A stretch of DNA of 64,000 nucleotides from NCBI RefSeq assembly GCF_900090235.1, contig NZ_LT607750.1:942501-1006500 (forward strand), given 5' to 3'. Under the pieces are notes generated by a model that was not told the origin of the DNA, ran no database searches, and worked only from the letters and a program-made list of their open reading frames with translations. This document shows positions 39,618 to 43,460 of the stretch, piece after piece. The position numbers and the translations under genes are program-made. The DNA comes from Micromonospora echinaurantiaca. Its GTDB lineage: Bacteria; Actinomycetota; Actinomycetes; Mycobacteriales; Micromonosporaceae. Numbering within the stretch: position 1 is the stretch's first letter; every line of letters begins with the position of its first letter.

Positions 39618-40613
39618 TCAGCCGGCGGTGCCCACCGCGGCGCCCTCGCGGGCCTCCAGGGCCTGCCGGTAGAGCCGGCCGGCCCGGTACGACGAGCGCA
39701 CCAGCGGCCCGCTCATCACCCCGGCGAAGCCGATCTCCTCGGCCTCCTCGCGTAGCTCGACGAACTCCTCCGGCTTGACCCAGCGGGTGACCGGGTGGTG
39801 CCGGGGGGAGGGGCGCAGGTACTGGGTGATGGTGATCAGCTCGCAGCCGGCCTCGTGCAGGTCGCGCAGCGCCTGGGAGACCTCGGCCCGCTCCTCGCCC
39901 ATGCCCAGGATCAGGTTGCTCTTGGTGACCAGGCCGGCGGCGCGGGCCTGCCGGATGACGTCCAGCGAGCGCTCGTAGCGGAACGCCGGGCGGATCCGCT
40001 TGAAGATCCGCGGCACGGTCTCGACGTTGTGCGCGAGCACCTCGGGCCGGGAGCCGAACACCTCGGCGAGCTGCTCCGGGTCGGCGTTGAAGTCAGGAAT
40101 CAGCAGCTCCACGCCGCAGCCGGCCTGGAGCGCGTGGATCTGCCGCACGGTCTCGGCGTAGAGCCAGGCGCCGCCGTCGGGCAGGTCGTCGCGAGCCACG
40201 CCGGTGACGGTGGCGTAGCGCAGGCCCATCGCGGCCACCGACTCGGCGACCCGGCGCGGTTCGTCGGCGTCGAACTCGGCCGGCTTTCCGGTGTCGATCT
40301 GGCAGAAGTCGCAGCGCCGGGTGCACTGGTCGCCACCGATGAGGAAGGTGGCCTCCCGGTCCTCCCAGCATTCGTAGATGTTGGGACAGCCGGCCTCCTG
40401 GCACACGGTGTGCAGCCCCTCGCGCGAGACGAGCCCGCGCAGCTGGGTGTACTCCGGGCCCATCTTGGCCTTGACCTTGATCCACGGCGGCTTGCGCTCG
40501 ATCGGCGTCTCGGCGTTGCGCGCCTCGATCCGCAGCATGCGCCGCCCCTCGGGGGCGGGCGTCGCGGTACGCGCGGCCGGGCCGGTCGTCGGCGCGGAGT
40601 GCTCGATCGTCAC
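39618..40613 (-). CDS. lipA: Lipoyl synthase (radical SAM)
   Basis: A 331-residue radical-SAM enzyme that inserts two sulfurs into protein-bound octanoate. The auxiliary [4Fe-4S] cluster motif is C71-QEAG-C76-PNIYE-C82; the radical-SAM motif is C97-TRR-C101-DF-C104. The C-terminal RSSYRAG provides the conserved cluster-binding serine. The GTG at 40613 ([11 protein letters not shown]) follows TAGGCT by 7 nt, so the message appears leaderless. Its substrate is octanoyl-E2 or octanoyl-GcvH made by LipB (42.8 kb). It is divergent from the T-box-controlled aspS. Confidence 0.96.
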
Positions 40614-40740
40614 GAATCCGAGCCTACGCCCGACGGCCGCCGTCGATGTACGTCGGGCGACCGGCGTCACGCCGCGGGGGTTGTGACGGTGGACACCCGC
40701 CGCTCCGGAAAAGGCGTCACATCCGGGCCGGCCGACCTGC

Positions 40741-40746
40741 TACCGT
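40741..40746 (+). promoter_or_regulatory. Putative -10 box of the aspS leader
   Basis: TACCGT, placed about 25 nt before the first T-box Stem I features. No consensus -35 was found. Transcription would begin near 40753. Confidence 0.4.
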
Positions 40747-40752
40747 GCCCGG

Positions 40753-41029
40753 CAACGCTGTGACGGAGCCGAGTAACGGGCCGATCCGCCAGTTGAAGAG
40801 AGCCGCCGGTTGCTGCGAGGCGGTCTGGCGCCGGGCCGCGAAGACCCTCCCGAGCCGCGGGAAGAACGGCGCTCGCGCGCCCACTAGACCCCGCCCGGCT
40901 GGCCCCGGTGAAAAGGCGACGAAACGAGGCCCCCGCTCGCGGGGGCGAAGGTGTGGTGGCACCGCGAGGATCCCGCTCGCCCACGCCTCCCTGGGGATCG
41001 CGTTGCGATTGATCGAGGAGGTAACCGCC
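40753..41029 (+). promoter_or_regulatory. T-box riboswitch (Asp-specific, translational) upstream of aspS
   Basis: The T-box consensus is clear: TGGTGGCACCGCG (40954-40966). Stem I has AGTA (40772-40775) facing GAA (40840-40842); the codon right after GAA is GAC (40843-40845), the Asp specifier. Inside, CGCCAG/CTGGCG (40787-40792/40825-40830) and CCGCC/GGCGG stems form. TGGC (40957-40960) can pair with GCCA at the tRNA-Asp 3' end (discriminator G). CCTCC (40986-40990) can mask the SD GGAGG (41017-41021), so control is likely at translation: uncharged tRNA-Asp binding frees the SD. The aspS product matches the specifier. Confidence 0.85.
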
Positions 41030-42316
41030 GTGCAACGCATCCTTTCCGCCCAACTCTCCGCCCATGTCGGCGAACCTGTCCGGATCGCCGGCTGGGTGCA
41101 CCGCCGCCGGCTGCTCAAGTCGGTGGCCTTCCTGATCGTCCGGGACGCCGCCGGGCTCGCCCAGGTGGTGGTCACCGACCCGGCCGTGCGCGCCCACCTG
41201 GCGGCGCTGACCGAGGAGACCGTCGTCGAGGTCACCGGCACGGCGGTCGCGAACGCCACCGCGCCCGCCGGGGTCGAGGTCACCGCGCCGGTGGTACGAC
41301 CGCTCGGCCCGCCCGCCGCGCCGCCCCCGTTCGACCTCTACCGGCCGGAGCTGACCGCGAGCCTGCCCACCCAGCTCGACCACGCGCCGGTCGCGCTGCG
41401 CCACCCGACCCGGTCGGCGGCGCTGCGCGTCTCGGCGGCGGCCGTGGCGGGCTTCCGCGCCGCGCTCGACGCCCGGGACTTCGTGGAGATCCACACTCCG
41501 AAGGTGGTCGCCTCGTCCACCGAGAGCGGGGCGAACGTGTTCGCGCTGGACTGGTTCGACCGGCCCGCGTACCTGGCCCAGTCGCCGCAGTTCTACAAGC
41601 AGCTGATGGTGGGCGTGTTCGAGCGGGTCTACGAGGTCGGGCCGGTGTTCCGGGCCGAGCCGCACGACACCGTCCGGCACCTGGCGCAGTACACCTCGCT
41701 CGACGCCGAGCTGGGCTTCGTCACCGACCACCGGGACGTGATGGCCGTGCTGCGGCACACCCTGGCCGGCATGCTCGACGCGGTGCGGGAGCGCGCCGGT
41801 GGGGCGCTGGCCACCCTCGGGGTGTCGGTGCCGGACGTGCCGGCGGAGATCCCGGCCGTGCATTTCACCGAGGCGCTGAAGATCGCCGGCGCGCCGGCCG
41901 ACGAGCCGGACCTGGCCCCGGCGCACGAGCGGGCGCTGGGGGAGTGGGCGCGGCGGGAGCACGGCTGCGAGTTCCTCTTCGTCACCGGCTACCCGATGGC
42001 GAAGCGGCCGTTCTACACCCACCCGGACCCGGCGCGGCCGGCCTACTCCAACGGCTTCGACCTGCTGTTCCGGGGGTTGGAGCTGGTGACCGGCGGGCAG
42101 CGGCTGCACCGGCACGCCGACTATCTGGCCGCGCTCGCGGCCCGCGGTGAGCCGGTCGAGCCGTACGCGGGCTACGTCGACGCGTTCCGCCACGGCATGC
42201 CGCCGCACGGCGGCTTCGCCATCGGCCTGGAACGCTTCGTCGCCCGCCTCCTGACCCTCCCCAACATCCGCCAGGCCACCCCCTTCCCCCGCGACCTCCA
42301 CCGCCTCACCCCGTAG
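41030..42316 (+). CDS. aspS: Aspartyl-tRNA synthetase, archaeal-type (aspartate--tRNA(Asn) ligase-like)
   Basis: A 428-residue class IIb synthetase. The N-terminal OB-fold anticodon-binding domain (EPVRIAGWVHRRRLLKSVAF) is followed by the catalytic core: motif 1 near RDFVEIHTPKVVASSTESGA, motif 2 with VYEVGPVFRAEPHDTVRH and motif 3 GGFAIGLERFVARLL. There is no GAD insertion, so it is the short archaeal/eukaryotic form, unlike the ~590-residue bacterial AspRS that actinobacteria also carry. Such enzymes are often non-discriminating and can charge tRNA-Asn. The GTG at 41030 has GAGGAGG 8 nt upstream, masked by the T-box leader. Confidence 0.93.
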   Translation: MQRILSAQLSAHVGEPVRIAGWVHRRRLLKSVAFLIVRDAAGLAQVVVTDPAVRAHLAALTEETVVEVTGTAVANATAPAGVEVTAPVVRPLGPPAAPPPFDLYRPELTASLPTQLDHAPVALRHPTRSAALRVSAAAVAGFRAALDARDFVEIHTPKVVASSTESGANVFALDWFDRPAYLAQSPQFYKQLMVGVFERVYEVGPVFRAEPHDTVRHLAQYTSLDAELGFVTDHRDVMAVLRHTLAGMLDAVRERAGGALATLGVSVPDVPAEIPAVHFTEALKIAGAPADEPDLAPAHERALGEWARREHGCEFLFVTGYPMAKRPFYTHPDPARPAYSNGFDLLFRGLELVTGGQRLHRHADYLAALAARGEPVEPYAGYVDAFRHGMPPHGGFAIGLERFVARLLTLPNIRQATPFPRDLHRLTP

Positions 42317-42328
42317 CGCCCGTCTCCC

Positions 42329-42389
42329 GTTGATCATGAGGTTGGCGGCAGTGCAGGAGATCGACTCCGCCGTCAACCTCATGATCGAC
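42329..42389. repeat. Family B palindromic element, copy 2 (61 nt)
   Basis: It opens GTTGATCATGAGGTTGGCGG and ends CGTCAACCTCATGATCGAC. It has the same length as copies at 17198, 46897 and 61844, and its spacer shares GGAGATCGAC with copy 4. It is located in the aspS/VOC convergent junction. Confidence 0.88.
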
Positions 42390-42416
42390 GGGCGGGGTGG
42401 CGGGCGGGGGTGGGGT

Positions 42417-42815
42417 TCAGGTGGGGCCTAGGAGGTCCCAGGGGTTGCCGGCGAGGTCGCGGAAGACGGCTACCCGGCCGTAGGGCTCGGTGCGCGGGGG
42501 CTTCACGAACTCCACCTTCGCCTCGACCATCCGGCGGTAGGTGGCGTCGAAGTCGTCGACCCGGAGGAAGAAACCGACCCGGCCGGCGACCTGGTCGCCC
42601 ACCGCCGCCTGCTGCCGGTCGCCGTCGGCGCGGGCGAGCAGCAGCCCTGTGCCGCCGCCGGGCGGGCGGACCACCACCCAGCGCTTGGGCCGGCCGTCGT
42701 TGGTCAGCGACGGCGAGTCCTCGGCCAGTTCGAAGCCGAGCACCTCGGTGAAGAACGCGATCGCCGGGTCGTACTCGGCGACGACGAGGGTGACCAGGTC
42801 GATCCGGGCGGCCAC
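42417..42815 (-). CDS. VOC-superfamily protein downstream of lipB
   Basis: A 132-residue VOC protein: ARIDLVTLVVAEYDPAIAFF, TEVLGFELAEDSP, then RWVVVRPPGGGTGLLLARAD and RVAVFRDLAGNPWDLLGP. The DLAGNPWDLL ending matches the glyoxalase group often annotated as lactoylglutathione lyase-like; the glyoxalase I metal ligands cannot be confirmed by eye. The GTG at 42815 starts 6 nt after the lipB stop, so it is the second gene of a lipB operon. A link to lipoate metabolism is not established; the pairing may only be positional. Confidence 0.87.
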   Translation of the reverse strand: MAARIDLVTLVVAEYDPAIAFFTEVLGFELAEDSPSLTNDGRPKRWVVVRPPGGGTGLLLARADGDRQQAAVGDQVAGRVGFFLRVDDFDATYRRMVEAKVEFVKPPRTEPYGRVAVFRDLAGNPWDLLGPT

Positions 42816-42821
42816 GGGCGG

Positions 42822-43460
42822 TCAGGCCAGCAGCGTCGGCAGCCGGCGCTCGACCACCGGGAGCACGTCGGCCACGGTGACCGGGCGGCCCAGCTCGGCG
42901 GTGAGCGAGGTGACCCCGGCGTCGCGGATGCCGCACGGCACGATCCGGTCGAAGTGGCCCAGGTCGCAGTCGCAGTTGATGGAGAAGCCGTGCAGGGTCA
43001 CCCCGCGGGCGACCCGGATGCCGATGGCGGCGACCTTGCGGGCCGGGCCCCGGTCGTCCGCCGGCACCCACACCCCGCTGCGCCCCTCGACCCGGCCGGC
43101 GGCCAGCCCGAACTCGGCGCACACGTCGATCAGCAGCTGCTCGGTGCGGCGGACGTAGGCGACCACGTCCACCGGGTCGGGCAGGCGCAGGATCGGGTAG
43201 CCGACCAGCTGCCCCGGACCGTGCCAGGTGATCTTGCCGCCACGGTCGACGTCGACGACCGGGGTGCCGTCCAGCGGGCGGTCCCACGGCTCGGTCCGCT
43301 TGCCCGCGGTGTAGACGCTCGGGTGCTCCAGCAGCAGCACGGTGTCGCCGCGCTCGCCGGCCACCACCGACTCATGCAGCCGGCGCTGCTCGTCCCAGGC
43401 GGCCTGGTAGTCGAGGACACCGGCGCGGACGGCCGTGAGGCCGGGGGTCGTCGTGGTCAC
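42822..43460 (-). CDS. lipB: Lipoyl(octanoyl) transferase
   Basis: LipB (212 residues) moves octanoate from acyl carrier protein to the lipoyl-domain lysine of E2 or GcvH. Active-site residues are K142 in [11 protein letters not shown] and C176 in [13 protein letters not shown]. Other conserved parts are [32 protein letters not shown] and THGFS-like [12 protein letters not shown]. The GTG at 43460 is the only reasonable start. A VOC gene follows at 6 nt. LipA, the next enzyme in the pathway, is 2.2 kb away, with aspS and its T-box inserted between them. Confidence 0.96.

Follow-up and report, generated by a model that had tools for sequence, protein, structure and literature searches.

A T-box leader, probably for tRNA-Asp and apparently translational, before an archaeal-type aspartyl-tRNA synthetase gene of Micromonospora

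The leader of aspS2, a gene for a second aspartyl-tRNA synthetase (AspRS) in Micromonospora echinaurantiaca, is confirmed by its sequence as a genuine T-box riboswitch, with a resemblance to known T-boxes far beyond chance, and it very probably acts as a tRNA-Asp-dependent translational ON switch. We infer a mechanism in which uncharged tRNA-Asp(GUC) would be bound in preference to the charged form, pairing with the GAC codon of Stem I and, through its GCCA end, with the UGGC of the T-box bulge. The bound tRNA would hold the antisequestrator helices A1 and A2, the 3' strand of A1 overlapping the anti-Shine-Dalgarno sequence, and the ribosome site would thereby be freed and the second, archaeal-type AspRS made; with charged tRNA, or with none, GCCUCC would pair with GGAGGU and initiation would be blocked. 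What is apparently new is an Asp T-box with a long Stem I, seemingly translational in action, before an archaeal-type AspRS in the Actinobacteria, the T-box itself being a known element; searches of open-access papers listed no Asp T-box from Micromonospora or other Actinobacteria.

The window, by which is meant the whole 64,000-nucleotide stretch of DNA that was analysed, had previously been given a sequence-only reading that proposed a T-box at this place. A sensitive scan of 40650-41100 (451 bases) with RF00230, the Rfam T-box model, bears this out, with a match at 40751-40987 on the forward strand (46.9 bits, E 2.5e-9) in which model positions 1-219, the full length, are aligned. It is the sole T-box match at E<=0.001 in the 7.2 Mb one-contig genome, where its E is 9.4e-9. 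The score lies below the curated gathering score of 93 bits, so that the leader is missed by a default scan, and a gathering-level Rfam scan of the whole 64-kb window gave no hits; since the gathering score is a rule for inclusion in the database, the leader is not filed as a curated Rfam member. RF00230 gave no match at the gathering score in any of 101 Micromonospora genomes, and default annotation therefore overlooks the T-boxes of this genus.

The gene aspS2 (41030-42316, forward strand) encodes an archaeal-type aspartate--tRNA(Asp/Asn) ligase of 428 aa, which scores 529.4 bits against NF003483 (cut-off 353) and 340.7, under the cut-off of 368.4, against TIGR00458 (aspS_nondisc). Its best solved relative is 1n9w, the AspRS-2 of Thermus thermophilus (397 bits, residues 3-428 aligned), and in the alignment with 1n9w a His and a Pro stand where the T. 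kodakarensis AspRS has Trp26 and Lys85, a pair that marks non-discriminating enzymes; AspS2 is probably an archaeal-type, non-discriminating AspRS. Thermus AspRS-2, of the same archaeal, non-discriminating type, serves Asn-tRNA synthesis in Thermus and is not known to be under T-box control. A GatCAB complex is mentioned in connection with that enzyme in PMC4206432. The sequence-only reading had taken aspS2 for an extra gene beside a bacterial-type aspS, and a full AspRS of bacterial type is indeed encoded elsewhere in the genome (842.8 bits), as is a bacterial AspRS in 101 of 101 genus genomes. No AsnRS over the cut-off was found in any of these 101, with 7 of 14 control genomes positive. The divergent neighbour of aspS2 is lipA (lipoyl synthase, 39618-40670, reverse strand); aspS2 sits between lipA and lipB, on the opposite strand to them (39618-43460), and by eye a lipA-like sequence lies upstream of aspS2 in several relatives too. 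In the protein tree AspS2 clusters with named Micromonospora, and the aspS2 loci of Micromonospora and Verrucosispora are 80-96% identical.

The enzyme is probably an inducible reserve, called on when charging of tRNA-Asp by the bacterial AspRS falls short, be it through shortage of Asp or through an AspRS inhibitor. It is also possible, and we put it forward tentatively, that the purpose is resistance, aspS2 being a target variant induced by AspRS-directed antibiotics and not a starvation reserve. The gene is accessory and sporadic, occurring in 21 of 394 class-level genomes (3 of these Micromonospora) and giving no match in 13 of the 101 genus genomes, the lineage of AspS2 differs from that of the bacterial AspRS, and there is a parallel in Bacillus cereus, whose second LysRS, a class I enzyme, also has a T-box (PMC2916919), all of which would suit such a purpose. 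However, aspS2 adjoins lipA, and a search of open-access papers on AspRS and self-resistance listed no such case by title.

All parts of the leader lie on the forward strand. Stem I is long (40757-40855, 99 nt, from the RF00230 alignment and covariation), with a base helix and K-turn halves, a specifier internal loop and a distal motif. The 5' side of the specifier loop is AGTA (40772-40775, invariant columns in the 40-sequence Stem I alignment), and GAA (40840-40842) directly precedes the specifier codon GAC (Asp, 40843-40845, from the sequence and the relatives), after which stands C (40846) where the Rfam consensus has A. Stem II (40857-40894) was placed from the sequence, the RF00230 alignment and leader comparison and carries the S-turn-like pair AAGAAC (40862-40867) and TAGAC (40885-40889). 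Both this S-turn and the distal elbow-binding motif of the IDTM type in Stem I, AGAGA (40797-40801) with GCTG (40812-40815), were assigned from sequence only. There follow a putative Stem IIA/B pseudoknot-like region (40895-40918), placed by the RF00230 alignment and by the described anatomy of T-boxes, and Stem III (40929-40946, from the fold and the RF00230 alignment), flanked by ACGAGG on its 5' and GAAGG on its 3' side; judged by eye, these flanks are purine-rich in the window and in the leaders of relatives alike. The antisequestrator, placed by covariation, consists of A1 (40950-40956/40981-40987) and A2 (40964-40968/40976-40980), between which lies the T-box bulge UGGCACC (40957-40963), whose TGGC (40957-40960) is complementary to the GCCA of tRNA-Asp; the T-box core TGGTGGCACCGCG occupies 40954-40966. 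Downstream are CCTCC (40986-40990), the Shine-Dalgarno sequence GGAGG (41017-41021) and the GTG start of aspS2 at 41030. Every motif named in the sequence-only reading, from AGTA through to the GTG start, is present, and the long, apparently IDTM-bearing Stem I goes beyond what had been claimed there. The hallmarks of class I are all found, namely a long Stem I with a distal IDTM, a specifier in an internal loop and a Stem II with an S-turn; the class III arrangement, a short Stem I without IDTM and with an apical-loop specifier, is not that of the window.

Control at the ribosome site had been proposed from the CCTCC that could hide the Shine-Dalgarno sequence, and the lowest-energy fold (-50.8 kcal/mol) agrees, with GCCUCC (40985-40990) paired to GGAGGU (41017-41022) in a predicted sequestrator spanning 40985-41022. 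When the antisequestrator is forced the fold has -48.2 kcal/mol, the sequestrator form being lower by 2.6 kcal/mol, and the probability of being unpaired is 0.17-0.19 at G41017-G41018 and 0.31-0.99 at the next four bases; in this model the Shine-Dalgarno sequence is opened only partly, G41017-G41018 mostly still being paired. The higher energy of the antisequestrator and the partial opening are as expected for a switch that would require its ligand to turn on. Of 152 distinct leaders, 103 have a CCUCC that runs into the end of A1, and the sequestrator pairing, scored by duplex energy (with the partial genes L265 and L267 excluded for their distance), is better than 95% of shuffles (p<=0.05) in only 25 of the 152, a weak statistic; native duplexes are barely better than those with swapped strands (-12.6 against -11.9 kcal/mol). 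No intrinsic terminator-like hairpin with a U-run was found in 40600-41100, so that the class I tendency toward control by transcription termination is not seen here, and a transcriptional terminator, considered as a candidate, was rejected on that ground. It is improbable that the Asp T-box nevertheless acts on transcription, through an unrecognised or Rho-dependent terminator, and not on ribosome access: class I T-boxes, with long Stem I and Stem II, are generally transcriptional in the available account (PMC10482949), and the weakness of the sequestrator statistic points the same way, but the lack of a terminator-like hairpin in that interval, the pairing of the Shine-Dalgarno sequence in the minimum-energy fold and the frequent overlap of CCUCC with A1 all favour a translational platform, which is supported, as the weakest of the supported claims.

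The specifier was read in the relatives as the triplet after GAA, without presuming its identity. Of 247 distinct leaders the pattern left 54 unread, and the other 193 all have GAC. By eye, some of the unread leaders keep GAC in a long Stem I whose surround is slightly altered, others carry it in a short Stem I hairpin, and in a few (L130, L151, L159, L206, L315, L318) no Stem I adjoins the core. The tRNA-Asp of the genome has the anticodon GUC, complementary to GAC, and ends in G73-CCA, its GCCA complementary to the UGGC of the bulge, which is UGGC in 205 and UGGU in 42 of the 247 distinct leaders. The alignment fixes no codon other than that for Asp, and the proposed Asp specificity holds, while tRNA-Asn, which had been allowed for as an alternative, is unlikely. 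A leader that reads tRNA-Asn, or two tRNAs in the manner of the T-box before aspS2-gatCAB of Clostridium acetobutylicum (Saad 2012, 2013, cited in PMC4206432), which reportedly has an Asn/Glu specifier and stands in an operon with gatCAB, might be thought of, since AspS2 is probably non-discriminating and no AsnRS passes the cut-off, and the enzyme could therefore serve Asn-tRNA synthesis. However, the codon here is GAC, fixed wherever it is readable, the two identified neighbours, lipA and lipB, are not gat genes, and the GAA before GAC belongs to the general loop consensus and so does not indicate a second codon; the tRNA-Asn or two-codon reading was rejected on the conservation of GAC and is most improbable.

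Conservation of the leader is extensive. Of 80 named aspS2 loci 78 have the exact T-box core and one more (L159, with the bulge UGGCAUC) a one-base variant, and a GAA-GAC Stem I is readable in 76; the family leaders that were fetched, six matches having been passed over as incomplete, duplicated or just 40% identical, have the core in 80 of 80. Overall the core or a one-base variant stands before 269 of 276 aspS2 loci, a count in which some places occur twice and which leaves out the partial genes L265 and L267. It is absent from seven of the 276 (L090, L097, L270, L272, L276 and the partial matches L268 and L288), so aspS2 can occur without a T-box. In family f29 it is present at 16 of 20 newly fetched loci, four of which (L271, L273, L274, L279) have UGGCACA in place of UGGCACC, with a long Stem I otherwise normal and no Stem II.

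Within the genus a T-box match is found in 94 of 101 genomes and a protein match at E<=1e-60 in 88, some of the latter partial and two only 39% identical; these two, in the Micromonospora genomes G062 and G084, have that relative only (G062:C1:1580959-1582257 and G084:C36:20106-21404). The seven genomes without a T-box match are all without an AspS2 match as well, and six further genomes have a T-box match and no AspS2 match. Judged by eye, some of the genus matches, six of them shorter and several of about 210 nt, belong to ileS-like genes. Two other kinds of Micromonospora T-box are seen by eye before IleRS-like frames (L009, L010, L019, L028 and others; L344-L349), one about 210 nt long, the other about 160 nt, its Stem I short and with AUC in the loop. 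A palindromic repeat like GGAAGGGCCCCCTNTTAAC concerns the leaders L097, L098, L114, L130, L151 and L159. In some Micromonospora leaders it occupies the loop of Stem II; in L130, L151 and L159 it goes along with a lost Stem I, and in L097 with the loss of the entire T-box. The repeat is dispersed, 11 of 31 genus genomes matching the pattern, one of them with as many as 17 copies.

Covariation in relatives, on which the proposal of a T-box had been staked, is present in both Stem I and the antisequestrator. For Stem I, 159 long leaders were taken, of which 13 misfitted the cutting pattern; thinning reduced the other 146 to 42, and removal of two over-long cuts left 40 distinct rows. In these, 94.6% of cells are paired, against 78.7% in shuffles and 31-46% in slid structures, and two-sided changes occur in 19 of 26 pairs, a figure that 0 of 500 shuffles equalled. 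For A1/A2, cutting yielded 74 distinct cores, with none from L086, and 68 rows were left after six truncated ones had been dropped; in these rows 98.8% of cells are paired against 93.2% in shuffles, with two-sided changes in 6 of 12 pairs, a figure that 3 of 500 shuffles equalled. That the leader is a chance resemblance or a decayed remnant without function can practically be dismissed, for although among the 80 named loci L097 has no core and L130, L151 and L159 have a disrupted Stem I, the E of 2.5e-9 and the strong covariation across several actinobacterial families already contradict it.

The base after the specifier varies with the architecture. In 199 distinct leaders with a long Stem I it is C in 105 and A in 94. 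All 105 leaders with C have an insert of at least 100 nt, the size of Stem II, between specifier and core, the S-turn-like motif being recognised by pattern in 87 and not in 18, and 91 of the 94 with A have a shorter insert, Stem II being present in the other three (L224, L228, L231); L252 and L253, counted as having the shorter insert, carry a small hairpin in the place of Stem II. All 69 tree rows, 35 and 34 of the two kinds, agree with this link and none is an exception, and they are phylogenetically clustered; on supported branches there are only 4 independent pairs, all 4 pointing one way (sign test, p 0.125), and with so few the test cannot attain significance. A review (PMC7583486) attributes the absence of Stem II from glycine T-boxes to strong codon-anticodon pairing, with tR37 stacked above it and R90 below. 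The coupling of base and Stem II seen here fits a compensation for the missing S-turn clamp.

At least four classes of T-box are described in the available text of PMC10482949: class I, generally transcriptional, with a long, IDTM-bearing Stem I and an S-turn Stem II; class II, glycine-specific, with a linker replacing Stem II; class III, with a short Stem I and an apical-loop specifier, in which Stem II is required; and class IV, with an intermediate Stem I. As judged from their sequences, the relatives of the aspS2 leader span several such architectures, more than the sequence-only reading had claimed. The class I form is that of the window, of Micromonospora, of Plantactinospora and of others, and the class II form, with GAC, is that of an Actinoplanes-type genus (g29), of several other genera and of a second family; in g29, where 63 genomes have a match, 60 leaders were inspected, of which 57 have a long Stem I and 56 of these 47-64 nt from there to the core. 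A class III-like form with an S-turn is found in L235, L236, L242, L222 and L257. In a further type Stem I is a short hairpin whose loop contains UGAC, and no S-turn is recognisable (the L172 group, L212/L223, L229/L230, the L233 group, L232/L239/L240, the L259 group, L261, L264 and L286). Covariation is slight in two groups of this type (1 of 27 and 5 of 18 pairs), whose fold details are therefore provisional, and some of these leaders could be decaying.

In the best tree of 96 AspS2 proteins, a quick, midpoint-rooted one on which architectures were labelled by eye and by pattern and L252 and L253, with a short Stem II and no S-turn, were grouped with the rows lacking Stem II, the architectures require a minimum of 9 switches of Stem I between long and short, and of 10 changes in the Stem II domain. 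L257, with a short Stem I, is sister to L260, with a long one, and L212/L223 (genes L363/L364) fall among Actinoplanes leaders without Stem II. We lean somewhat towards regarding the aspS2 Asp T-box as one switch that would have crossed the borders between classes repeatedly, with GAC and the discriminator retained throughout. Where Stem II was lost, the base after the specifier would have changed from C to A, as if the clamp that Stem II provides had given way to a purine stacked beneath the codon-anticodon helix; such a switch would break the glycine-only rule for T-boxes without Stem II, and some lineages with a short UGAC-loop hairpin and no S-turn would lie outside the four classes.

Comparison with known systems places the leader among several of them. 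With class I T-boxes of the B. subtilis tyrS type, in the classes as given in PMC10482949, the window's leader shares the long Stem I, the IDTM-type motif, the internal-loop specifier, the S-turn Stem II, Stem III and the UGGN bulge, but it is apparently translational, has C and not the Rfam-consensus A after the specifier and scores under the Rfam cut-off. The translational class III ileS T-boxes of Nocardia farcinica and Mycobacterium belong to the same phylum, likewise precede a synthetase gene and follow the same logic of Shine-Dalgarno sequestration, but they have a short Stem I, an apical-loop specifier and no IDTM, whereas the leader in the window probably reads Asp and its Stem I is long; a short Stem I is, however, shared with them by some of its relatives. 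The Actinoplanes-type relatives share with class II (glyQS) a long Stem I and a short linker replacing Stem II, but carry GAC (Asp), where class II is glycine-specific as described in that same available text (PMC10482949). In C. acetobutylicum one of three aspS genes is under a T-box, according to the available part of PMC2494555, and there as here a T-box stands before one of several AspRS genes. The B. cereus T-box before a class I lysyl-tRNA synthetase (PMC2916919) likewise belongs to an extra synthetase whose type is known from archaea, with a different amino acid and in a different host phylum. These two are precedents for T-boxes on extra synthetases.

The aspS2 switch extends the actinobacterial T-boxes beyond ileS and provides a long-Stem-I T-box that appears to act on translation. 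Its relatives form a natural series, with the same tRNA, codon and gene and with leaders that have or lack Stem II and have a long or a short Stem I, which makes it possible to test what contacts with its tRNA a T-box depends on, and whether codon strength explains the glycine-only rule for T-boxes lacking Stem II. For the organism, a second AspRS with a charging sensor of its own suggests an inducible defence of the Asp-tRNA supply.
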